A DNA stretch of 58,126 bases, from IMG/VR virus record IMGVR_UViG_3300001847_000530, positions 1-58,126 of that record; one strand, 5' to 3'. Position numbers and translations under genes: made by a program. This stretch comes from a virus. The notes below the pieces were generated by a model. It saw nothing but the letters and a program-made list of their open reading frames with translations. It did not search any database and was not told the origin of the DNA. This document shows, one piece after another, positions 36,506-55,503 of this stretch. Within the stretch, counting starts at the first letter, position 1. The number at the start of each line of letters is the position of its first letter.

Positions 36506-37440
36506 TGTTCTTTTGATAACAACATTTTTGTGACGGAATAAACCATTCTAATGGGGTTAACGTATGCACCACGTGAAGAACGTGGTGCAGTTTCCGAATC
36601 GATTAGTAAGTAAGGTACTATGCTGAGGCTTAGGTTGGCCAACCGAAGCTACCAGAGGTATGGCTCGTAAGCTTGAATATAGAATGACAAGCGAGTCATT
36701 ACGGTGCGGCGGCATCAATTGTCTGAATAACAGAAACTCGAAGCTGGAATGGAGGTAATCATTAATCCTCCCAATTTATTTTCATCATACTCGACTAGGC
36801 GAGTCTAAACAGAAGTATAGGCCTAGTGCGGCGGTACAGAAATGTGCCGCGACTTGCCACGCCTTGGTTCCGCTGTGCACCGGATTAAATTCTGATTAAA
36901 ATCCAGTTACCAAGAAAAATAAGTACGAGACAAAGGCTGCGGTTTCAATAGCAGAAACGCCGCATATAAATCTCGTTGCTCAAGCTATGAGTTAGCGTGG
37001 CACCCAATTTTGTTCTTTACATTAGAATTTCTTGGTGTGGCCTTTAACCAGCAAATGCGCTGTTAGCGGTCGTATTCATCGAAGTCAGCAACATCAGAAT
37101 AGCAGGACAGCTATGATGCCAAGTGGCTAATTACGACGGATGGTATGCGAAACCCGGATGTTAAGACCCGCTGTTAACTAAAATGGTCTCATCCAGTGAC
37201 AGTAATGTCTAGCAGAGCCCAGGACAACATCGATGAGCAGCCACATCAAGAATGTAGACGACACGTGGAAATACACCTCATCAGCATGAAGATGGGGAAG
37301 CTTCCTCTCGGTCTGAACCTCGCGCGGTAGAAAGATTCCGCGGCGTTTGCTAGCAAATGATGCGTACTATCGACAAATGATGGCGAGTACCCGCAATACG
37401 AGGCTCTGGAAGTTCGCAAAGACCGTTCCACATCTACCTG
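36506..37440 (+). ncRNA. Giant structured non-coding RNA (GOLLD/ROOL-like candidate)
   Basis: About 930 nt with no credible ORF and dense self-complementarity. Hairpins include TGCACCACGT/ACGTGGTGCA (36565-36589), GGAGG/CCTCC, ATGAC/GTCAT, GCGGTAC/GTGCCGC, CTTGGT/ACCAAG enclosing GGATT/AATCC, ACGAGA/TCTCGT enclosing GTTTC/GAAAC, GACA-GTAA-TGTC (GNRA loop), CCTCATC/GATGGGG and CGCGG/CCGCG. The loop ACTAGG (36794-36799) of the ACTCG/CGAGT hairpin can pair with CCTAGT (36822-36827), a pseudoknot. Location next to phage tRNAs and the size fit the GOLLD and ROOL classes. Boundaries are approximate; no terminator at the 3' end, so it might extend into the leader of the adhesin gene. Confidence 0.7.
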
Positions 37441-37459: not shown

Positions 37460-38968
37460 ATGACAAAACAAACCAACAAACAAACCGCACGCAGATTGCT
37501 CTCTAGCATTCTGCTTTCTGTGTTTACAGCTACTGCTCTAGCATTACCTAGCACAGATCCTACTAACCTGCAAACCTCGGCCGGCGTGACCGTTCTGCAA
37601 GCAACGAATGCGCTGACGATCACTGCACCAAACCGTGCTGTCCTGAACTGGACAAACTTCGGATCCGGAACGGACACGATTTCGCGAAGTGACTTGCTGA
37701 CATATCAGCTGCCTGATGCAAAGTCATCAGTACTAAATATCGTCACTGGTTCTGCACAATCGATGATCGATGGATATATTTCCTCAAATGGAAAAGTTTA
37801 TATCATCAATCCTAACGGCATTGTCATCGGAGCAAATTCGCGCTTTGATGTGGCCTCGCTAGCACTATCTGCTAGCGATAATCCAGTAGCTGCTCAGCTG
37901 CAATACCTGCGTGATGGTACTGTTCCATCCGAGGTTGGAATTCGGAGCGCATTTGGCTCGCTGACAGTCAATAGCTCAGCAATGATTCTAAGCCCAAACA
38001 TCACGCTTCTTGCCAAGAATGTATATGTCGGTGCTGCGATGTTCGGTGGTGCAACCACAATCAATGCTGACGGAGATGTCCAGCTTGGTGTGCAAGGCGG
38101 CTCGACGGTCTTCGGAGGTCTGACAATCACCAATGCCAGCGGAAATACAGTGCTGAGCATGGCAGGATCGACAGTCAATTCAACTGGTCCAATCGTTGCA
38201 ACCAGTGATCGTGGTAATGTTCTCAGTCAGGCAGGATCGCGCCTTGTGACTAAGAATCTAACTGTTACCTCGAATTACGGTGCTGTCAATCTTGGTGCTG
38301 ACGGTGCTCTGATTACAACCGCAACCGCTCCAACAGTCACGATTGCTCTTGATGGTCTGACACCTAATCCATCAGTTGGTGGATCTTCGACTGGCGCATT
38401 TGCTGTGACATCACCCGCATCTTTCAAGGTTGATGGAGTTACTGGTGTCAGCAATTCGCCATTCAGCTTTACGTCTGGCGGAGATCTTACACTGGGTGCT
38501 GTTCACCTTGATGTGACCAGTGCAACGACGTTTGCAGGAAAGACAGTCACAGATACCACAAACGGAATCTTCGTTTACGGCCCAGTGCTGTTTTCTGCTA
38601 CTGGTGGAGATATTTCAATCACCAAAGGCAATCATAGCTTTGGTCCTGTCAGCGTATTTGCCAACGGAAATGCGACAGTTTATGAAGCTGCTGCTCTCAA
38701 TTTGAATACTGTCAATGTCAAGAATCTTGTGCTGAAAACAGGAGAATACTTTTTTCAGACACCGACAACAGCAAGTCTCTTAGCCAATTCTTTCAATTTG
38801 ACTGCCTCAGGTGCCGTTTCATTGTTTACTGGAAACATCGCCTCGGGTCTTACGATCAGTGCCGGTTCATCAAGTGTAGATCTGAGCAGACTCAGTATTG
38901 CCACGAATTTGAACGGCATCGCACCAACAGTGACAACGACCGGTGCTGTTGGACAACCTAATCCTTAA
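37460..38968 (+). CDS. Filamentous-haemagglutinin-type TPS-domain exported protein
   Basis: 502 aa. A signal peptide (LLSSILLSVFTATALA) precedes a two-partner-secretion domain: AITAPNRAVLNWTNF-like strand (ALTITAPNRAVLNWTNFG), then SSNGKVYIINPNGIVIGANS, the hallmark NPNG(I/V) motif. The rest is repetitive beta-helix sequence (GNVLSQAGSRLVTKNLTVTS; VTDTTNGIFVYGPVLFSATG), far shorter than bacterial haemagglutinins. It should adopt a beta-helix on the cell surface or virion; no TpsB-type partner with POTRA domains is visible in the window. Confidence 0.85.
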   Translation: MTKQTNKQTARRLLSSILLSVFTATALALPSTDPTNLQTSAGVTVLQATNALTITAPNRAVLNWTNFGSGTDTISRSDLLTYQLPDAKSSVLNIVTGSAQSMIDGYISSNGKVYIINPNGIVIGANSRFDVASLALSASDNPVAAQLQYLRDGTVPSEVGIRSAFGSLTVNSSAMILSPNITLLAKNVYVGAAMFGGATTINADGDVQLGVQGGSTVFGGLTITNASGNTVLSMAGSTVNSTGPIVATSDRGNVLSQAGSRLVTKNLTVTSNYGAVNLGADGALITTATAPTVTIALDGLTPNPSVGGSSTGAFAVTSPASFKVDGVTGVSNSPFSFTSGGDLTLGAVHLDVTSATTFAGKTVTDTTNGIFVYGPVLFSATGGDISITKGNHSFGPVSVFANGNATVYEAAALNLNTVNVKNLVLKTGEYFFQTPTTASLLANSFNLTASGAVSLFTGNIASGLTISAGSSSVDLSRLSIATNLNGIAPTVTTTGAVGQPNP

Positions 38969-44135: not shown

Positions 44136-44356
44136 GCAAGTACAGTAAAGTAACACTGACAATCGATGATGAAGTAGCAGACCAGCTGGTCTGCAGTAGA
44201 CTTGACGTCTCGATTAATTACTTGCGAGAGGACATCAAGAAACTGATCAAGAAGAAAAAGCTCGCTCCCTACGAAAAGGAAGACCTTGCAGACTGTCAGA
44301 AGGATCTGGCAGCTCTTGAGCAGGCGTTTGACTATTACGGCGGAAACTTGAAGTGA
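44132..44356 (+). CDS. Small phage protein, helical
   Basis: 74 aa, KVTLTIDDEVADQLV followed by a Lys-rich helix (LREDIKKLIKKKKLAPYEKE). Resembles small accessory proteins widespread in phages. Overlaps neighbours by 4 nt. Confidence 0.55.
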   Translation: MSKYSKVTLTIDDEVADQLVCSRLDVSINYLREDIKKLIKKKKLAPYEKEDLADCQKDLAALEQAFDYYGGNLK

Positions 44357-45051
44357 CTAAGATCTGCTTCATTTCTGATACGCACGGCGCGCACCTCGGT
44401 CTGCAGTTGCCAGACGCAGACATTCTGGTACACTGCGGCGACTTCAGCAGCCATGGCACCTACATGGATGCGCTGAGATTCGTCAATTGGTTTGGCGCAC
44501 AGCCGCACAAGCACAAGATCTTCATTGCGGGCAACCATGATCTGTACTTTGAGCAAGGCAATCCATCGGACATAACAGTGTTTCTGCAGCAGCTTCCGCC
44601 GAATGTTCATTACTTGCAGGACAGCGGAATTGAGCTGGAAGGCATTACTTTTTGGGGCTCGCCGGTACAGCCTCGCTTTTTTAACTGGGCATTCAATCGT
44701 GACAGAGGAGCAGACATCAAGAAGCACTGGGATCTGATTCCGCATAAGACAGATGTTCTGATCACGCACGGACCTGCGTATGCTCGATGCGATGAAGCTC
44801 CAAGAGCTGGTCGATTCGGCGATGTAAGCTGGCTCGAGCGAACTGGCTGCAAAGATCTGCTTGACGCCATCAAGCAAGTCAAGCCGAAGATTCACGCATT
44901 CGGGCATATTCACTACGCTTACGGCTACACCTTTTCCGAGAACGTCCACCATTTCAATGCATCGATCTGTACTGAGGGTTACGTTCCAAACAACAAGCCA
45001 TTTCTGGTTGATCTAAATGGTTGCAGTGTGGAGAAGATTGACATATTATAG
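44353..45051 (+). CDS. Calcineurin-like metallophosphoesterase
   Basis: 232 aa from GTG 44353 (no ATG option; overlaps previous stop). FISDTHGAH (D-x-H), ILVHCGDFS (GD), FIAGNHDLYF (GNHD), LITHGPAY (H) and AFGHIHYAYG (GHxH) give the complete two-metal centre. Phosphatase or cyclic-nucleotide phosphodiesterase activity is possible; substrate unknown. Its presence in the same genome as a cyclase is worth noting. Confidence 0.88.
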   Translation: MTKICFISDTHGAHLGLQLPDADILVHCGDFSSHGTYMDALRFVNWFGAQPHKHKIFIAGNHDLYFEQGNPSDITVFLQQLPPNVHYLQDSGIELEGITFWGSPVQPRFFNWAFNRDRGADIKKHWDLIPHKTDVLITHGPAYARCDEAPRAGRFGDVSWLERTGCKDLLDAIKQVKPKIHAFGHIHYAYGYTFSENVHHFNASICTEGYVPNNKPFLVDLNGCSVEKIDIL

Positions 45052-45364: not shown

Positions 45365-45549
45365 AAGTATCATCTGTTAGACTCGCTATTGTCTTTCTAT
45401 ACTGCCTCGCTGTTCTGTACGGCGTCGGGTATGTAGTATTCTACAAAGGCGCCAGCGCTTGGTGGTTTTTAGCGGCAGGCTGTGTCCTGCCTCGCGGCGA
45501 TTTTATCCTGCGGTTGGCGCAGGAGGAGCCGGAGGAGCCGGAGGAGTAG
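45361..45549 (+). CDS. Small membrane protein, convergent overlap
   Basis: 62 aa with two hydrophobic segments (VRLAIVFLYCLAVLYGVGYV and ASAWWFLAAGCVL), ending EEPEEPEE. Its last 47 nt overlap the 3' end of the minus-strand lipoprotein gene. Confidence 0.5.
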   Translation: MKVSSVRLAIVFLYCLAVLYGVGYVVFYKGASAWWFLAAGCVLPRGDFILRLAQEEPEEPEE

Positions 45550-46507
45550 AATCTTCTTTCTTCTTGGCAAACGGCGAGATGCTGCCTCCGCCTTTCTTGT
45601 GGCTCATGACTGCCATGACGACCACAAATAGTCCCATTACTGCGCCGACGACCCAGAACGGAATCGTGGCAGCTACATAAGAAAGGCCAAGCATTACTAA
45701 GCCGCCGATGATGAACACCGGACTCTTCAGCAGGAATCCTAGTACCATTAGTACTATGCCCACGCCCAGAAGTGCTTTGACGATCATACCGACCATCTCC
45801 TGCTTCTGTTTTTCCTTGGCGATCTCAACAGCATCATCAGCTTCCTTCTTCATCTTTGCGCGGAATGCTTCCTGTTCTTCCTGAAGTTTCTTGAGTGACT
45901 CAGCTTGCTCAGAACGAATCTTTGACTTTTCTTCTTCTTTCTGCTTGACAAGTTTATCAGCTTCTGCGTAACGCTTTGCGTCTTCCTCGGATTGTTTTAG
46001 CAGCACGCTATACTTTTTGCGAATGTCATCCTCAGCCTTCTGGCGATCTGCAGTGATGTCTGCCTCGATTTCCTTTTTCTTTCCTTCCGGTACTGGCATT
46101 AGTATTACAGCTGCTTCCTTTGACTTCAGGTTTGCAATCAGCACGCGCTTATCAAGTCCAGTAATTTCCTCGGTGGCAAATGTGATCCCGTAGTTGATAG
46201 CAGAAATCTTGTCAAAGTTATCATTGTCGATCTTTTCGCGTTTTGCATACGCATCTGCTAATTCCTGCCGAAACTTCTCGTAACGGATTTCCATTGCTTT
46301 GCGCGCCTCAGCCTCGCGCCGTGCAATTTCTGTCATTCTATCCACAGCATTGGAAGTTGCTTGAGCACCCGCAACTGTTCCACTGGTATCGCCGCCTTTA
46401 TTTTTATCTAGACGGTCGCCTAACGATGCTATCTTTCCGCCAATACCAGTAAGCAACTGGCAACCGGTCATAAGCATTAAGCAGAATAGTATGAATATCC
46501 ATCTCAT
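45503..46507 (-). CDS. Coiled-coil membrane lipoprotein
   Basis: 334 aa. Lipobox LMLMTGC (Cys about 16), a long charged coiled coil (residues 55-235, e.g. AEADKLVKQKEEEKSKIRSE), then two or three membrane segments (MIVKALLGVGIVLMVLGFLL; PVFIIGGLVMLGLSYVAATI; VVGAVMGLFVVVMAVMS) and a Pro/Ala tail. Envelope protein, possibly linking membranes as spanins do; inference. Late expressed from the shared promoter at 46514. Confidence 0.65.
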   Translation of the reverse strand: MRWIFILFCLMLMTGCQLLTGIGGKIASLGDRLDKNKGGDTSGTVAGAQATSNAVDRMTEIARREAEARKAMEIRYEKFRQELADAYAKREKIDNDNFDKISAINYGITFATEEITGLDKRVLIANLKSKEAAVILMPVPEGKKKEIEADITADRQKAEDDIRKKYSVLLKQSEEDAKRYAEADKLVKQKEEEKSKIRSEQAESLKKLQEEQEAFRAKMKKEADDAVEIAKEKQKQEMVGMIVKALLGVGIVLMVLGFLLKSPVFIIGGLVMLGLSYVAATIPFWVVGAVMGLFVVVMAVMSHKKGGGSISPFAKKKEDSTPPAPPAPPAPTAG

Positions 46508-46513
46508 CCTGGA

Positions 46514-46525
46514 TATTTATAAATA
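46514..46525. promoter_or_regulatory. Bidirectional T4-type late promoter
   Basis: The palindrome TATTTATAAATA contains TATAAATA on both strands (plus 46518-46525; minus 46521-46514). Minus-strand ATG is 6 nt away (46507); plus-strand ATG at 46556. It divides the lipoprotein gene from the curli-containing run. Confidence 0.7.
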
Positions 46526-48145: not shown

Positions 48146-48392
48146 CAAAGACATCTTCGATTTTGGTTTTACCGCTGTCGATGAAGACGAGCTCGATATC
48201 TCGAAGCAGGCAGAAGAAGCACGCACGATTGCGGGGCAGCACGAGGACAAGCTGAATCGCTTGTATGAGGCAATTCTGCCGTTGCTGCACAATCTCAAGA
48301 AGAACCCAGAGAAGGACTACATCAAATGGCCCAACCGCGTGAAGAAGGTTGAGGAATTTGAGAAGATGATTGCTGGCATCGTGAATGGATAA
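48135..48392 (+). CDS. Conserved small T4-like protein
   Basis: 85 aa. Ends with KLNRLYEAILPLLHNLKKNP and DYIKWPNRVKKVEEFEKMI, a block I recall as conserved in T4-like cyanophage genomes; function unknown. Partly paralogous to the preceding protein. Confidence 0.6.
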   Translation: MADNKDIFDFGFTAVDEDELDISKQAEEARTIAGQHEDKLNRLYEAILPLLHNLKKNPEKDYIKWPNRVKKVEEFEKMIAGIVNG

Positions 48393-48676
48393 TGAACGCA
48401 GAAGCCTTCAAGTCGCTGATGGATTTGGGCTTCTCGGTAGCCGCTGTAGCTATCGGCGGAGTATTCATTGTTATCTTGCTGAAGTACATTCTGGCGGGAG
48501 TCGTCTCGGATGTGAAGTCAATTTCAGGACTGGCGGGAATGCTGAACAACCGTGTCCGCACAATGAACAACGATTTGGTCAGAATCGATGCTCTGATTTC
48601 AGCAAAATTTGGATTGCGTGTAGATCTTGAACGCCTTGCTCGTACTGACGGCAAGACTGATGCTCGAAAGGACTGA
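48392..48676 (+). CDS. Membrane helix plus coiled coil
   Basis: 94 aa. Membrane segment near residues 12-35 (FSVAAVAIGGVFIVILLKYI), then SGLAGMLNNRVRTMNNDLVR. Related in layout to the next protein. Possibly a holin-like or anchoring protein. Confidence 0.5.
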   Translation: MNAEAFKSLMDLGFSVAAVAIGGVFIVILLKYILAGVVSDVKSISGLAGMLNNRVRTMNNDLVRIDALISAKFGLRVDLERLARTDGKTDARKD

Positions 48677-48678
48677 GG

Positions 48679-49005
48679 ATGACAGACGAGATCAGCACGT
48701 TCAAGATGATGGTAAACCAGTACGGGTTGCCGATCATGGCAGCTGGCGGCATGGGATACTTCATTTATTTTGTCTGGAAATTCGTCACGGAGAACATCAA
48801 CACTGAGTTGTCCAACGCGAAGAAAACGATGATTGAGCTGATCGACAGGATTAGAATGCTTGATAATGATTTGATCAGGTTAGAGCAAAAAATCAATACG
48901 GCTATTGAAGTCCAACGAGTCAAAGATGAAAAACCAAAAACAGCATCCGTCATCGAACAGTCTGATACTAATAGTAGTGTTCCTCCTCCTGCTATTTTGT
49001 CTTAG
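48679..49005 (+). CDS. Membrane helix plus coiled coil (paralogue-like)
   Basis: 108 aa. Membrane segment GLPIMAAGGMGYFIYFVWKF, then a helix KTMIELIDRIRMLDNDLIRL echoing the previous gene's MNNDLVRIDAL, then a disordered tail. Its last 80 nt overlap csgF. Confidence 0.5.
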   Translation: MTDEISTFKMMVNQYGLPIMAAGGMGYFIYFVWKFVTENINTELSNAKKTMIELIDRIRMLDNDLIRLEQKINTAIEVQRVKDEKPKTASVIEQSDTNSSVPPPAILS

Positions 49006-49447
49006 CGTGCTTCCACAGTGTGCTTTGCGCGGCTCGGATATGACATACAGTTTCAAGTCGCCTGCGTTCAACGGAATCGGATACTCTGCACACGAGATCA
49101 CTATCGAGAATATCTCGCGTACTCGTAAGCAAAACATCCAGGATGTTGCAAAGGCTGAGGCGGAAAACCTGAAGCTTGCATCTCAGAATACTCCTCTGAA
49201 CAACTTCATCGTCAATCTGCAGGCGCGCATTTACTCGCAGCTGGCCTCGCAAGTCACAGATCAGATTTTCAATGGCAGCGCGACGTTTGGTGCGATCAAT
49301 CTGCAGGGCGGTGCTACAGTAACTTGGGTGCGCTCGGGTGACATTGTGACTCTTTACATCGTCGATCCTGCCACGGGAAATATGACTTCAATTCAGGTAC
49401 CAGTCGGAAGTCTGGCACCTGCTACAACGACTCCGCCTACCGGCTGA
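48926..49447 (+). CDS. csgF: CsgF-like curli assembly factor
   Basis: 173 aa from ATG 48926 (a TTG at 48905 is less likely). N-terminal signal (SLILIVVFLLLLFCLSVLP); the mature start MTYSFKSPAFNG matches the conserved CsgF N-terminus (MTFQFRNPNFGG) that inserts into the CsgG pore. Further matches: LNNFIVNLQARIYSQLASQV to the helix, and DIVTLYIVDPATGNMTSIQV to the C-terminal sheet. It has an extra 25-residue helix compared with E. coli (138 aa). In curli systems CsgF couples secretion to nucleation outside the cell. csgG follows after 3 nt. Confidence 0.88.
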   Translation: MKNQKQHPSSNSLILIVVFLLLLFCLSVLPQCALRGSDMTYSFKSPAFNGIGYSAHEITIENISRTRKQNIQDVAKAEAENLKLASQNTPLNNFIVNLQARIYSQLASQVTDQIFNGSATFGAINLQGGATVTWVRSGDIVTLYIVDPATGNMTSIQVPVGSLAPATTTPPTG

Positions 49448-49450
49448 TCG

Positions 49451-50275
49451 ATGAAGAAACTGCTAACAGCCACACTACTGCTATCTTTACTTTTTAGCGG
49501 CTGTGCTTCAGTTTCGCGCAGTCCACGCATTCTTGAAATGCCGCGACTGCAGGAAAGCCCGCTACAAAAGCAGCTGTTCGCGCTGCCTGCAATCGATGGC
49601 TCAAAGATCACGATTGCTGTCTATAACTTCGCAGACAAGACTGGACAGCGCAAGACTGTAGATACCTACGCATCGTTTTCATCAGCAGTTACTCAAGGCG
49701 CAGACAGCTGGCTGATCGATGCGCTGCGCCTGGCTGGAAACAATCATTGGTTTCAGGTGCTCGAGCGTTCCTCGCTGGACAATCTTGTCAAGGAACGACA
49801 GCTCATCGCGCAGACTCGCGAGTCGTTTCAAGGCAAGGATGCAGAAAAGCTTTCACCGCTGCTGTTCGCGGGCATCATCGCAGAAGGCGGAATCATCGGA
49901 TACGACACTAACGTCTTTACTGGTGGCGCGGGCGCAAGCTTGCTGGGTATTTCGAGCTCGACACAGTACCGCAAAGATGTAGTCACTGTTTCCCTGCGCT
50001 TCATTTCAGTACAGACAGGCGAGGTGATGCTCTCAACAGCAGTGACAAAGACAATTACCTCGGTTGCTCTTTCAGGCAACCTATTCAAATTTTATGAGCA
50101 TGGAGTGACACCAGCAGAATCAGAACTAGGGTTCACAGCAAACGAGCCGAATACAATCGCGGTACGTTCTGCTATCGACCAAGCAGTGATTGAAATCATC
50201 AATCAAGGCGCTAAGACTGGCCTCTGGAAATTCGCAGTGACAGGTAAACCACAACCAACCAACCAAAGCAAATGA
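49451..50275 (+). CDS. csgG: CsgG-like curli secretion pore lipoprotein
   Basis: 274 aa, same length as E. coli CsgG (277). Lipobox LLFSGC (Cys 18). Conserved blocks: ITIAVYNFADKTGQRK, VTQGADSWLIDAL, WFQVLERSSLDNLVKERQLI, IIAEGGIIGYDTNVFTGGAG, TQYRKDVVTVSLRFISVQTG and VGYTSNEP-like LGFTANEPN. The constriction loop reads VDTYASFSSAV where E. coli has PYPASNFSTAV: the Tyr and Phe remain but the Asn is lost and the loop is one residue shorter. It should assemble as a nonameric outer-membrane channel. Overlaps the curlin gene by 4 nt. Confidence 0.93.
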   Translation: MKKLLTATLLLSLLFSGCASVSRSPRILEMPRLQESPLQKQLFALPAIDGSKITIAVYNFADKTGQRKTVDTYASFSSAVTQGADSWLIDALRLAGNNHWFQVLERSSLDNLVKERQLIAQTRESFQGKDAEKLSPLLFAGIIAEGGIIGYDTNVFTGGAGASLLGISSSTQYRKDVVTVSLRFISVQTGEVMLSTAVTKTITSVALSGNLFKFYEHGVTPAESELGFTANEPNTIAVRSAIDQAVIEIINQGAKTGLWKFAVTGKPQPTNQSK

Positions 50276-51078
50276 AAAATAAAGTCGTAGCGCTATTCAC
50301 CCTGCTTTTGCTCCTCACTGCGACAACTCGAGGACAGAATCAGATCTACGTGAATCAGATCACCACGAGTGGCACAACCACTCTCGTTCAGGTAGGAAGC
50401 CTGAACAAAATCGGCTCCTCGCAGACACCAAGCGACATCACGGGAGACAACATCGTCTTTGAAATGCGTCAGATCGGTGACAGCAATACGACTGACTTCT
50501 CGATTGCTAGCGCGAACAACCTGAAGTTCATCTCGGCATATACTGGCAACAGCAACACGCAGAAGTACTACTTCAGCGGTGCTAGCAACAATATGAACTT
50601 CTCGGTGGCAGGCAACAGCAACTCGTTCTTGCTGAACAAGGATACCACAGTAGATCATACCTCGAATACTGACAGCTCGAAAGCCACACTTCAGAACTCA
50701 GACCTGAAGTTTACTGTCACGGGTAATTCCAATACCTTCAAGTTCGCAATCGACTCAGGTAAATACAACTACCTCGATTACAACATCACGGGCAACTCAA
50801 ATACCATCAAGTCCACACAGATCGGCAATACCTCTGGATCTGCTGCTAAGGACGGGCATGAGCAGACAGTCAACATCACTGGATCTTCCAATGATCTGAC
50901 AATCTATCAGGCAGGTATCGAAAAGCAGCTGTTTAACTACACGCTGACAGGATCAACGAACACCGTGAAGATCGTGCAGACACAGGCAGGTTATGCTCCA
51001 GTAATGACTACAACTGGAACAAATGGCCCTGCGGGAACAGCACAGACCACAAATTCGATTACTCCTCCAACACAGTAA
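50272..51078 (+). CDS. Curlin-like repeat protein (CsgA/CsgB-type amyloid subunit candidate)
   Basis: 268 aa. Signal peptide (VVALFTLLLLLTATTRG), then at least eight imperfect repeats built on G-x-(S/T)-N followed by alternating residues and often Q-x-G: IGDSNTTDFSIA, TGNSNTQKYYFSG, AGNSNSFLL, TGNSNTFKFAID, TGNSNTIKSTQIG, TGSSNDLTIYQAG and TGSTNTVKIVQTQAG. Curlins use S-x5-Q-x-G-x-x-N-x5-Q. The match is looser here, but the neighbouring csgF and csgG make it the natural substrate. Confidence 0.8.
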   Translation: MKNKVVALFTLLLLLTATTRGQNQIYVNQITTSGTTTLVQVGSLNKIGSSQTPSDITGDNIVFEMRQIGDSNTTDFSIASANNLKFISAYTGNSNTQKYYFSGASNNMNFSVAGNSNSFLLNKDTTVDHTSNTDSSKATLQNSDLKFTVTGNSNTFKFAIDSGKYNYLDYNITGNSNTIKSTQIGNTSGSAAKDGHEQTVNITGSSNDLTIYQAGIEKQLFNYTLTGSTNTVKIVQTQAGYAPVMTTTGTNGPAGTAQTTNSITPPTQ

Positions 51079-51087
51079 GATTTAGTA

Positions 51088-52230
51088 ATGAATAGTAAAG
51101 CCGCTATTGCGATCATAGCCATGGCGGCTTTTTTGTCTGCGCACGGAGCGGTGGGTAAGATGGATACTGTCACTGGCCCAACTCAGATCGCGCGCGGCAA
51201 GGAGAAGATCGAAGGCAAGAAAGATACAGATGTCGAGATGAATGACTCTGTCGAGACGCTGAAAGCGCGTGTCGGTATTACCTTTGAGGACAACACGAAG
51301 ATGCAGGTGACAGAATTCTCAAAGCTCAAGATCGATGAATTCGTGTACGATCCCAAGTCAGGTAAAGGTAGTCTTTCTATCAAAGCAGCATTTGGCACAG
51401 TTCGGTATGCATCAGGAGCAATCGCAAAGAATAGCCGCGAGAACGTCAAGGTGCAGACACCGACAGCAAAGGTATCAGTACGCGGCACAGACTTCTCGAT
51501 GACTGTCTCGGAGGATGGCAAAAGCTTGATCGTGCTACTGCCATCGATTCCAAAAGCATCAGGTTTGCCACCGGTTGTCGGTGAGATTACTGTCTCAAAT
51601 CTGGGCGGTTCTGTGCTCATGAATCAGGCATATCAGGCCACATTTGTATCCTCGCAGAACACAGCACCCACACCACCCGTGGTACTCGACTTTCAGGACG
51701 AATCTAAGATCAATAATATGCTGATCGTGGAAACACCGCGTCAGGTTACTCAGGCAGTCAAAGAACAAAAGAAAGAAAAGCAACAAACACAAAGCACCGA
51801 TGATGAAGACAATAAGCCCAAAAAGAAAGACACAAAGACTGCAATTACTCAATCTGATACGCCGCCGGCTACTGCAACAGTGGCTGCACAACAAGCAACA
51901 ACGACTGACAATACTCAGCCAGTGACCACAGATCTGAACATCAATGCTATTCAGCCGCAGGTGCTACAGAATGTAGCAACCGTAATTGAAAAGGCTCAGC
52001 CGCCAGCTCCTCCACCAAATTTGGTTGTTGGTACTGCTGTAGTCAATACTGGGTGGGCATCTGATGGCACGAATGCCACACTGCTGATAGACAATAATGG
52101 CAATGTGGTGCAGTATTCGACAAAGGCGAACGCCAATCTCTTGATAGATATTACGACAGATGAAGGCACTAAATCATACCCGCTGAATTTCGGTGATAAA
52201 CTAAAGGTGAACATCACGCAAAAGAAATAA
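51088..52230 (+). CDS. FecR-domain periplasmic protein
   Basis: 380 aa. Signal peptide (AAIAIIAMAAFLSAHGAVG), then a FecR domain: TGPTQIARGKEKIEG, GITFEDNTKMQVTEFSKLKI, IKAAFGTVRYASGAIAKN and VQTPTAKVSVRGTDF (VRGTDF at 131-136 is diagnostic). A Gln/Lys-rich, disordered linker (residues 215-300) and a short C-terminal beta domain follow. No N-terminal cytoplasmic segment, so it is not a classical FecR anti-sigma factor; free FecR-domain proteins are often neighbours of CHASE2 proteins, as here. Stop overlaps the cyclase start (TAATGA). Confidence 0.85.
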   Translation: MNSKAAIAIIAMAAFLSAHGAVGKMDTVTGPTQIARGKEKIEGKKDTDVEMNDSVETLKARVGITFEDNTKMQVTEFSKLKIDEFVYDPKSGKGSLSIKAAFGTVRYASGAIAKNSRENVKVQTPTAKVSVRGTDFSMTVSEDGKSLIVLLPSIPKASGLPPVVGEITVSNLGGSVLMNQAYQATFVSSQNTAPTPPVVLDFQDESKINNMLIVETPRQVTQAVKEQKKEKQQTQSTDDEDNKPKKKDTKTAITQSDTPPATATVAAQQATTTDNTQPVTTDLNINAIQPQVLQNVATVIEKAQPPAPPPNLVVGTAVVNTGWASDGTNATLLIDNNGNVVQYSTKANANLLIDITTDEGTKSYPLNFGDKLKVNITQKK

Positions 52231-54287
52231 TGAAGAAGCATCAAATCAAGATCATCGGTATCGGACTAATCATGCTGGCAGTAGCTGTTGCGCTGCGTAT
52301 CTGGGATCCATATCCGATCGAGGTGCTGCGTCTCAAAGGATTAGACTTTTATCAGCGTCAGCAACAGAAAGAAGTATCCAAGAACATTGCTGTCATTGAG
52401 ATCGATGAGGCTGCTCTCGAAAAGAATGGTCAGTGGCCCTGGCGCCGTGATGTGCTGGGTGCTGCTGTCAGCAAGGCGATGGACGCTGGTGCAAGTGCAG
52501 TGGTGCTACCTATCATCTTTGCAGAGCCTGATCGTCTGGGCGGTGATAAGGAATTCATTCAGGTGATCGAGAAGGTACCCGTAATCATTGCTCAATCTGC
52601 TGCTCAGAAAGGCAAAGGCGAGCCAGTGCCGCGCGGGTTAGCAACAATTGGCGGAAAGGCAGAAGACTGGCTGTTCGATTATCCAGCGGCAATAGGACCA
52701 ACTAGTGACATTGGTAAATCGGCTGCAGGCGTGGGCATGCTGCTGACTGCTCCTGAGCTTGATGGGGTGGTGCGTCGTTTACCGCTGATCGTGCAAGTCA
52801 AAGGCGAGAAGTATCCCACATTGCCTCTGGAGGTGCTACGCGTCTTTGGTGGAGAGGCATCCAATCAGGCCAAGGCGAATGAGGGAGGCATCGTTGCTGT
52901 GCGCGTTGCTGGAATTCCGCCGATCAGGACAGATGCAAATGCTCGCGTCTGGCTGAATATGAAGTACACCTTTGAGAGCATCTCTTACACAAAGAATGAT
53001 TGGAGTGCTGTCAAAGGAAAGATCGCAGTCATCGCGCCAACAGCAGAAGGTCTGGCCAATACTGTAGCGACACCTCTGGGTACCACATATGGATACGAGG
53101 TCAATCTGCAAGCACTGCAGATGCTGATCGATGATGCGCGTCTGGAACGCCCAGCGGAAGCTGATCTGTACGAGCTTGCAGCTGGTGTGCTGCTGTGTCT
53201 GATTGCAATCGTGACAATCTGTTACCTGAACTACATCGCTGCGGGTATCCTGTTCGTGATTATGCTAGTCGCACCAGTTCAAACTGGATTTTACCTGTTC
53301 GCGAAGCATCAATCACTCTACGATTTTACCTGGGTGTGCGGCGCGCTGATCGGATCCTGGGGTGCAGCATTGTTCTGGCGGTTCGTGATGGAATTCAAAC
53401 TGAAGCAGCAGATCAAGAAGCAATTTGGTACATACCTTTCGCCTGCCATGGTTGAAAAACTGCAACAGAATCCTGACCTACTCAAACTTGGCGGCGATGA
53501 AAGAGAACTTTCCATTATGTTCACAGATGTTCGTGGCTTCACCGCCATATCAGAACACTATGGTAAGAATGTTCAAGGGCTGACGCAGATCATGAATCGC
53601 TACATGACTGCAATGACTCAGGCGATTCTTGACAACAATGGAACGCTTGACAAATATATCGGTGATGCTCAGATGGCATTTTGGAATGCTCCACTTGATG
53701 ACAAAGAACATGCCAAGAACGCTGTGAAGACCGCGATGAAAATGTTGAAGGACTTGGATGCATTCAATGCCGAAATAACCAAAGAAGGCGTACCAGCATT
53801 TGGTATGGGGCTTGGCATCAACACAGCAACGGTTGTTGTTGGTAATATGGGCAGCACACAAAGATTTGACTATACCTGTCTTGGAGACGGAGTAAATCTG
53901 GCATCAAGACTTGAAGGTCAAAGCAAGCCATATGGCGTAAGAATTGTCCTTGGTCAAGACACAGCAAGATATGTGCAACGCGATTATCAACTGTTTGAAT
54001 TGGACAAGATTGCTGTCAAAGGAAAGAAAGAAGGAGTAAGAATATTCACTGCGCTTGAAAATGAACTTGGTGTCGCAAAAGCACACGTCTTGGTATCTCA
54101 CCAAATGTTCCTGAATGGTTACAGAGAAAAAAATTGGGATAACGCCATTTATCACGCAAAGGAACTTATGAAATACAACAAGGAACTAAAAAAGTATTAC
54201 GAGATGATGATCGAGCGCATCGAGTACCTCCGTGACAATGACCCAGGCGAAAAGTGGGATGGCGTCTACAGAGCGACCAGCAAGTAA
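52230..54287 (+). CDS. CHASE2-domain class III adenylate cyclase
   Basis: 685 aa. An N-terminal membrane segment (IIGIGLIMLAVAVALRIW), a CHASE2 sensor (about 40-310; e.g. IAVIEIDEAALEKNGQWPW), three membrane helices (about 312-390), then a cyclase domain (about 405-600). Metal Asps lie in SIMFTDVRGFT (about 433) and KYIGDAQMAFW (about 478). The substrate-specifying Lys is in TLDKYIGD and Thr in FDYTCLGDGVNLASRLEG, a Lys/Thr pair typical of ATP-using enzymes; the transition-state Asn and Arg are in NLASR. All catalytic residues are present, so cAMP synthesis is predicted. AGA codons cluster only in the cyclase-domain half. Confidence 0.93.
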   Translation: MKKHQIKIIGIGLIMLAVAVALRIWDPYPIEVLRLKGLDFYQRQQQKEVSKNIAVIEIDEAALEKNGQWPWRRDVLGAAVSKAMDAGASAVVLPIIFAEPDRLGGDKEFIQVIEKVPVIIAQSAAQKGKGEPVPRGLATIGGKAEDWLFDYPAAIGPTSDIGKSAAGVGMLLTAPELDGVVRRLPLIVQVKGEKYPTLPLEVLRVFGGEASNQAKANEGGIVAVRVAGIPPIRTDANARVWLNMKYTFESISYTKNDWSAVKGKIAVIAPTAEGLANTVATPLGTTYGYEVNLQALQMLIDDARLERPAEADLYELAAGVLLCLIAIVTICYLNYIAAGILFVIMLVAPVQTGFYLFAKHQSLYDFTWVCGALIGSWGAALFWRFVMEFKLKQQIKKQFGTYLSPAMVEKLQQNPDLLKLGGDERELSIMFTDVRGFTAISEHYGKNVQGLTQIMNRYMTAMTQAILDNNGTLDKYIGDAQMAFWNAPLDDKEHAKNAVKTAMKMLKDLDAFNAEITKEGVPAFGMGLGINTATVVVGNMGSTQRFDYTCLGDGVNLASRLEGQSKPYGVRIVLGQDTARYVQRDYQLFELDKIAVKGKKEGVRIFTALENELGVAKAHVLVSHQMFLNGYREKNWDNAIYHAKELMKYNKELKKYYEMMIERIEYLRDNDPGEKWDGVYRATSK

Positions 54288-55077: not shown

Positions 55078-55503
55078 ATGAAACTGATTCTTGCGCTGCT
55101 CGCTCTGACCGCCACCGCAAAAGCTGCTTCACCGCAACTGATTGACGCGCTGGTCGCTGTCGAATCGCACGGCAATGCTGCTGCTGTCGGCGACTCTGGC
55201 AAAGCTCTCGGTATCCTGCAGATTCATGCCACAATGGTTGCCGATGCGAATCGCATTGCTGGTACGCACTTTACGCATCGCGAGATGCTTGATCCCACCA
55301 AGGCGCGAGCTGTTGCGTCTATCGTGCTTGACCATTACTCGCGTCAGATCCTACGCACGACTGGACGGAATGCGTCTAACCGCGAGCTAGCGTTCATCTG
55401 GAACGGTGGTGCTAGTGCGTGGCGCCGTGCTGATGCGCCGATGAATGATGCAAAGCAGCGCAACCTCGAGGCGTACTGGAACAAGGTTTCTAAGTCGCTG
55501 TAA
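55078..55503 (+). CDS. Exported lytic transglycosylase-like protein
   Basis: 141 aa. Signal peptide (MKLILALLALTATAKAA), then a goose-lysozyme/SLT-type core: LVAVESHGNAAAVGDSGKAL with the catalytic Glu in VESHGN, GILQIHATMVADANR, and FIWNGGASAWRRA. Shorter than bacterial Slt. Candidate endolysin exported by the Sec system or a wall-remodelling enzyme for early infection, as its promoter is of the early class. Confidence 0.75.
   Translation: MKLILALLALTATAKAASPQLIDALVAVESHGNAAAVGDSGKALGILQIHATMVADANRIAGTHFTHREMLDPTKARAVASIVLDHYSRQILRTTGRNASNRELAFIWNGGASAWRRADAPMNDAKQRNLEAYWNKVSKSL

Follow-up and report, generated by a model that had tools for sequence, protein, structure and literature searches.

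The gene run

The stretch of DNA analysed here (the window) is the whole of IMG/VR record IMGVR_UViG_3300001847_000530, a phage-genome fragment of 58,126 bp. Its subject is a run of genes in which homologues of the curli (type VIII) secretion genes are followed by a gene for a FecR-domain protein and a gene for a membrane-anchored class III nucleotidyl cyclase with a CHASE2 sensor domain. The record carries T4-like replication genes (UvsX, a DnaB-type helicase, ribonucleotide reductase and a helicase loader) together with tRNA genes and a tmRNA, and the closest relatives of its helicase are found in T4-like cyanophages and marine viruses; the T4-like genes suggest that the phage may be lytic. 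The genes of the run lie on one strand, in the order csgF, csgG, curlin-repeat-like gene, fecR, cyclase:

48905–49447 (+): CsgF homologue (PF10614, E=9e-14); the true start may lie slightly downstream
49451–50275 (+): CsgG homologue, outer-membrane pore lipoprotein (PF03783, E=4e-51)
50272–51078 (+): curlin-repeat-like secreted protein (signal peptide recognized by eye; homology to a gene of phage Melnitz)
51088–52230 (+): FecR-domain protein, 380 aa (PF04773, E=2e-9)
52230–54287 (+): CHASE2 / class III nucleotidyl cyclase, 685 aa (Pfam, alignments, AlphaFold model, Foldseek)

The original prediction had described a stop/start overlap between a FecR gene and a 685-residue CHASE2 cyclase, sited downstream of curli genes. 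Both points hold: the junction reads TAATG, a single base at 52230 being common to the two open reading frames, and csgF, csgG and the curlin-repeat-like gene lie upstream in the same direction. A Pfam search with the curlin-repeat-like protein returned no match; the protein is a homologue of the Melnitz ‘curlin associated repeat protein’.

Architecture, active site and selection

The FecR protein consists of a signal peptide, the FecR domain (residues 56–148), a low-complexity linker and a C-terminal domain, and on the reading of its signal peptide is predicted to be exported to the periplasm. The features recognized in it are the FecR domain and, at the N terminus, a signal-like segment. FecR of iron-citrate signalling (FecIRA) is a membrane-spanning regulator encoded beside an extracytoplasmic function sigma factor and a TonB receptor. 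No such genes were seen adjoining fecR (no search of the full window with these families was made), and a sequence search of the PDB with the FecR protein found no relatives.

The cyclase matches CHASE2 (PF05226, E=4e-40) and Guanylate_cyc (PF00211, E=1e-19). These matches and that of the FecR domain all exceed the curated Pfam cut-offs, CHASE2 scoring 138 bits against a cut-off of 26.3. In the AlphaFold model (mean pLDDT 85.7) a first transmembrane (TM) helix (residues 3–25) precedes an extracytoplasmic CHASE2 domain (48–300), which is followed by three further TM helices (311–332, 335–360 and 367–399), the catalytic domain and C-terminal helices. The PF05226 score and this layout of TM helix, extracytoplasmic domain and three TM helices together place the protein among the CHASE2 proteins, and the modelled position of the domain between TM1 and TM2–4 agrees with its predicted role as a sensor outside the cytoplasm. 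No solved structure related to the CHASE2 half came up in a sequence search of the PDB. Foldseek searches with the catalytic half returned cyclases as the top PDB matches, including CyaC (1wc1; TM-score 0.82 by target length).

52371–53129 (+): CHASE2 periplasmic sensor domain, residues ∼48–300 (PF05226; AlphaFold)
53496–54053 (+): class III catalytic domain, residues 423–608 (alignments; Foldseek)
53526, 53652, 53664, 53874, 53895 and 53907 (+): codon starts of the active-site residues D433, K475, D479, T549, N556 and R560

Active-site residues were placed by alignment to solved cyclases (6fht, CyaB and Cya2) and to 84 phage and 78 bacterial homologues. The metal-binding residues are D433 and D479, the base-binding pair K475 and T549, and the transition-state residues N556 and R560. 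The catalytic set had been predicted to be intact, and all six residues are indeed present; of the two metal aspartates originally named, D433 stands, and the second is D479 by alignment rather than D478. The complete set (DKDTNR) is kept in 77 of the 84 phage sequences, the window included; the remaining ones retain D, K, D and R, and the metal pair is present in all 84. The position of K475 is occupied by glutamate in the guanylyl cyclase Cya2 (2w01) and by lysine in the engineered 6fht, and for this reason ATP is the likely substrate.

Among sequence pairs with measurable synonymous divergence, the ratio of nonsynonymous to synonymous rates (dN/dS) is ∼0.007–0.02 for the catalytic domain and ∼0.03–0.1 for the sensor. 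These values point to strong purifying selection on the catalytic domain, and the window cyclase is therefore likely to be an active, cAMP-forming enzyme. Conservation of DKDTNR in 77 of 84 sequences, combined with the low catalytic dN/dS, excludes chance.

Distribution among phages

A membrane-anchored cyclase in such a phage had been expected to be most unusual. It is not: a scan of IMG/VR found at least 596 relatives of the window cyclase, and two cultured phages have the same gene run, with the cyclase already annotated as such: Melnitz, which infects OM43, and HTVC008M, which infects SAR11. Wittmers 2022 (PMC9599517) described type VIII secretion system (T8SS) clusters of pelagiphages, of alphaproteobacterial origin, that include FecR, an adenylate cyclase and a ‘histidine kinase’; the same study reported expression of viral curli genes and FecR in metatranscriptomes. 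Zaragoza-Solas 2020 (PMC7029224) and Buchholz 2022 (PMC9004378) discussed phage curli genes and left the cyclase out. Phage curli clusters with FecR and a cyclase are already known, and the window is a further example; new here are the pre-existence of the FecR–CHASE2 pair, the recombinant cyclase, a cyclic-nucleotide-binding gene beside csgF, and the late-promoter motifs.

The window has the gene order of the pelagiphage T8SS–FecR–cyclase clusters (csgF-csgG-curlin-fecR-(curlin)-cyclase; HTVC008M gp014–019, Melnitz gp99–104) and encodes homologous proteins, with 38–42% identity between the cyclases. All three phages are T4-like, and Melnitz and the window have a tmRNA. There are also differences. 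GC content is 48% in the window phage compared with ∼34–37% at the HTVC008M and Melnitz loci. Pelagiphage T8SS clusters often, though not always, have a second curlin gene that separates fecR from the cyclase; the window lacks it and has the one-base overlap instead. At the active site the window has the Lys/Thr pair, whereas HTVC008M has Ser, and Melnitz Asp and Ser. Finally, a swap of the catalytic domain (see below) is evident in the window cyclase, unlike those of HTVC008M and Melnitz.

Two loci from metagenome-assembled genomes of Flavobacteriaceae were taken as probable phage DNA in bacterial bins: L085 has a phage-type module, and L086 a phage-like cyclase that was counted among the phages in the 84-sequence alignment. 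A cyclase match in the Acinetobacter ‘phage’ MD-2021a (H7) was discarded, as it is flanked by mfd, isc and hsc genes and looks bacterial.

FecR and CHASE2 are paired in phages and bacteria

In phages fecR lies upstream of the cyclase at all 36 loci with at least 6 kb of sequence upstream of the cyclase, some of these loci being near-duplicates. Among bacterial loci with enough flank, FecR lies within 3 kb of the CHASE2-cyclase gene in 24 of 54, a count that takes in the probable phage locus L085. Ten genomes, picked for holding a cyclase, have FecR within ∼3 kb of 8 of their 19 CHASE2 genes. These genomes contain 45 FecR domains over 40 Mb, so that ∼0.2 such cases would be expected by chance. 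When the class was sampled as a whole, with short flanks, the count was 3 of 29 loci. These counts indicate that the FecR–CHASE2 pairing already exists in alphaproteobacteria and is an old functional pair.

As in the window, the alphaproteobacterial pairs (Thalassospira, Sneathiella) encode an exported FecR protein beside a CHASE2 membrane sensor; in Sneathiella, however, the FecR domain sits inside a large adhesin-like protein with RTX, VWA and Calx-beta domains. Contig L162 combines the cyclase with a 1317-aa FecR-domain protein, OEP and HlyD-type genes and a pair of phrog_18771 genes (see below); it may represent the type I secretion equivalent, in a phage, of the curli module. L162 is itself a phage-like contig, found in a ‘Rickettsiales MED657’ bin. 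From the Sneathiella and L162 contexts the FecR–CHASE2 pair appears to accompany exported surface proteins generally, not curli alone. The BiofilmReg operon of Burkholderia (PMC5192318) likewise has FecR, there with LysM, beside a CHASE2 sensor, but its output is a histidine kinase.

The whole module also occurs in a bacterium. A Caulobacteraceae contig (L088) has the order csgF-csgG-curlin-curlin-fecR-cyclase amid genes whose translations resemble a TonB receptor, a peptidase and a glycosyltransferase. This cluster is a bacterial counterpart of the phage module, which was therefore probably acquired from bacteria.

The window cyclase is a recombinant

The two halves of the window cyclase have different relatives. 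In the tree of the sensor half it groups with L002, L003 and L005 (support 100); in that of the catalytic half, with L007 and L008. Approximately unbiased (AU) tests rejected a placement of the catalytic half with the relatives of the sensor (p=4e-4), and of the sensor half with those of the catalytic domain (p=2e-40); these p-values are optimistic because the groups were chosen after the sliding identities had been seen. We infer that the sensor derives from the L002–L006 clade and the catalytic half from the L007–L011 clade, with the junction in the linker:

53412–53550 (+): linker with the inferred recombination breakpoint, residues ∼395–440 (sliding identities, trees, AU tests)

A similar pattern is seen in L051–L054, whose sensors are 61–64% identical to that of the window and whose catalytic domains are just 51–56% identical. 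Catalytic cassettes appear to be swapped between phages at the linker.

Late-promoter motifs precede the run

46514–46521 (−) and 46518–46525 (+): divergent pair of T4-type late-promoter motifs, TATAAATA (motif match)

Of the two, the plus-strand motif is oriented towards the genes leading up to and including the cyclase. The window has 6 matches to the motif compared with 0.82 expected. The same divergent pair is present in L024, and many relatives have copies upstream of the run, on the strand of the operon; in L054 one lies between csgF and the cyclic-nucleotide-binding gene described next. The operon probably belongs to the late genes, with T4-type late promoters driving it.

Genes upstream of csgF

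A search of 15 records with PF00027 found a protein with a cyclic-nucleotide-binding domain (cNBD) in two; with further scans the number rose to nine viral contigs. In seven of the nine (L014, L029, L038, L053, L054, L168 and L172) the cNBD gene adjoins csgF and is divergent from it, for example:

L014, 5718–6356 (−): cNBD protein (PF00027, E about 1e-21), divergent from csgF
L029, 3867–4526 (−): cNBD protein (PF00027, E about 1e-21), divergent from csgF

The other two (L169 and L170) have no curli genes in the flank covered. The phosphate-binding cassette, GEGALVSGAPRNAT, is nearly invariant among the phage cNBD proteins, and six of eight have a moderately hydrophobic tail, which AlphaFold models as helical with pLDDT mostly below 50. 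A CRP-type transcription factor divergent from csgF was considered and rejected: there is no helix-turn-helix match, and the hydrophobic helical tail is found instead. No earlier report of a cNBD gene with phage curli was found in the literature accessible without most subscription papers.

In the window, as in the rest of its clade, Melnitz and HTVC008M, csgF is instead preceded by a pair of phrog_18771 genes:

48392–48676 (+): tm3, short TM and coiled-coil protein, phrog_18771, 94 aa
48679–49005 (+): tm4, second phrog_18771 paralogue of the same operon, 108 aa; overlaps, at its 3′ end, the start called for csgF

Pelagiphage T8SS clusters are reported to have one or more histidine kinases before csgF (Wittmers 2022), where the window has this pair; a Pfam search found no kinase domain in the two proteins. 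The pair accompanies the cyclase regardless of strand, staying with it where the two lie on opposite strands and also in L162, where the neighbours are OEP and HlyD genes. Twenty loci have the pair only, five the cNBD gene only, eight neither and none both (P ∼0.005 on the assumption of independent loci, which these are not). In phages with neither the cNBD gene nor tm3/tm4, no membrane partner gene is evident upstream of csgF. The cNBD neighbour hints at a signalling circuit run by the phage itself.

A proposed role for the module

We suggest, and think it rather probable, that the run is a phage module expressed late, whose FecR and CHASE2 components turn the state of the envelope or of secretion into cAMP. 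FecR and the cyclase would be the part that senses in a type VIII secretion module carried by the phage: FecR, possibly with exported curlin or with CsgG/CsgF, would act on the CHASE2 domain, and the signal would be relayed through the TM4 helix to a dimeric catalytic domain on the cytoplasmic side, which would make cAMP. Late in infection, cAMP would report the assembly or blockage of the outer-membrane pore or fibre built by the phage. In the clade of the window a CRP-type protein of the host would serve as receptor; in a subset of relatives this part may fall to the cNBD protein encoded divergently from csgF.

The idea of an envelope-state reporter had been part of the original prediction. 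An intact cyclase under selection, linkage to FecR and curli genes, and the lysine expected of an ATP-using enzyme speak for it; the supposed rarity does not survive. Because the FecR–CHASE2 link is general and found beside other exported surface proteins too, a reporter of envelope or secretion state is the most economical reading, and this sensory role is plausible and better supported than before. An experimental precedent comes from Sinorhizobium meliloti, where CHASE2 cyclases (CyaD1, CyaD2 and CyaK) raise cAMP when a protein signal is perceived via NsrA, an outer-membrane barrel (PMC13001267). The likeness has limits: NsrA is not CsgG, the Clr of that system is a host transcription factor, and in the text consulted no FecR or curli is reported with it.

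Several points weigh against the proposal. Contact between FecR and CHASE2 is suggested by gene linkage alone. The changes T549 to D and N556 to S, found in Melnitz, L053 and L054, may alter specificity or activity. The late-promoter motifs are consensus matches only, in relatives that are not independent. Searches with PF00027 found nothing in the window (a fragment), nor in L024 and L055 (large records of its clade), Melnitz or HTVC008M; since neither the window nor its near-complete clade relatives yielded a cNBD protein, a host receptor has to be assumed.

The strongest rival, which we consider rather unlikely and which is compatible with envelope sensing, is that the curli pore, the TM-coiled-coil pair and the cyclase form a lysis-control cassette that times release, cAMP or the membrane proteins triggering the opening of the envelope. 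A lysis role has been proposed for CsgGF in Melnitz (Buchholz 2022, PMC9004378). The late-promoter motifs of the window and its relatives would fit, as would the small membrane proteins of phrog_18771, the cNBD proteins with a hydrophobic tail in some relatives, and the genes that flank the run and are kept in clade relatives: a u-spanin-like lipoprotein (45503–46507) and an SLT transglycosylase (55078–55503). However, the spanin-like and SLT genes are linked to the run only in the clade of the window, and not near the operon of Melnitz or HTVC008M; the cNBD tail is just moderately hydrophobic and its model of low confidence; and FecR–CHASE2 pairs are kept on the chromosomes of Alphaproteobacteria themselves.

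Sensing and lysis could be joined in a complete phage circuit, in which FecR/CHASE2 would sense, late in infection, the state of the curli pore built by the phage, and cAMP acting on the phage cNBD protein with its hydrophobic tail would bring about a membrane or lysis response, the phrog_18771 membrane pair replacing the cNBD function in the clade of the window and others. We regard a circuit of this extent as unlikely.

It is less probable still that the cyclase serves a general metabolic takeover, raising host cAMP to change host transcription with no tie to curli. Auxiliary metabolic genes are frequent in phages, and the cyclase is intact and under selection; yet gene order is kept across very diverged phages, expression looks late rather than early, and a large and diverse sensor domain, needless for constitutive cAMP production, has been retained.

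Interference with Pycsar-type cyclic-nucleotide defence, with the cNBD protein as sponge or decoy, seems highly improbable. Pycsar (PycC with PycTM or PycTIR) has the class III cyclase fold of the window, some relatives have a neighbouring cNBD gene, and the PADLOC models for PycC and PycTIR match the catalytic domain (E=4e-25) and the cNBD protein (E=5e-11), but these matches are explained by the cNBD and class III domains that both have in common. Pyrimidine (cCMP/cUMP) specificity would be expected of a Pycsar cyclase, and K475/T549 predict ATP as substrate; no defence genes were seen around the cyclase; the window has no adjacent PycTM/PycTIR effector (no PF00027 match); and CHASE2 and curli genes are foreign to Pycsar. 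The notion of a passive passenger, a functionless remnant of bacterial curli DNA, draws on the probable bacterial origin but is already disfavoured and scarcely credible given the strength of purifying selection, the many phage contigs with undisrupted reading frames, kept synteny and the expression of viral curli genes and FecR in metatranscriptomes (Wittmers 2022).

With a selected cAMP-type cyclase and its general FecR partner at the end of a widespread phage curli module, the question of why phages have curli genes becomes a testable one about signalling. The cNBD gene beside the module in some phages adds to that question and is the part most worth following. The module also offers a handle on what CHASE2 domains sense, termed unknown in PMC5192318.

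Other features of the window

36789–36856 (+): pistol ribozyme (RF02679, 52 bits, over the gathering score), a little past the tmRNA gene
37460–38968 (+): 502-aa protein with a two-partner-secretion exoprotein domain (PF05860, E=3e-13)
44353–45051 (+): calcineurin-like metallophosphoesterase (PF00149, E=3e-9), ∼4 kb upstream of csgF
45503–46507 (−): 334-aa lipoprotein-like protein with a coiled coil, C-terminal hydrophobic segments and u-spanin-like architecture

The two-partner-secretion gene is a second surface-secretion gene of this phage. The metallophosphoesterase, which we presume to resemble MPPED, could in principle degrade cyclic nucleotides; it has only generic family matches, and the label cAMP phosphodiesterase is not used here. 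The u-spanin-like gene is divergent from the operon, with the late-promoter pair between them, and is kept in the clade of the window; in L169 a member of its family adjoins the cNBD gene.

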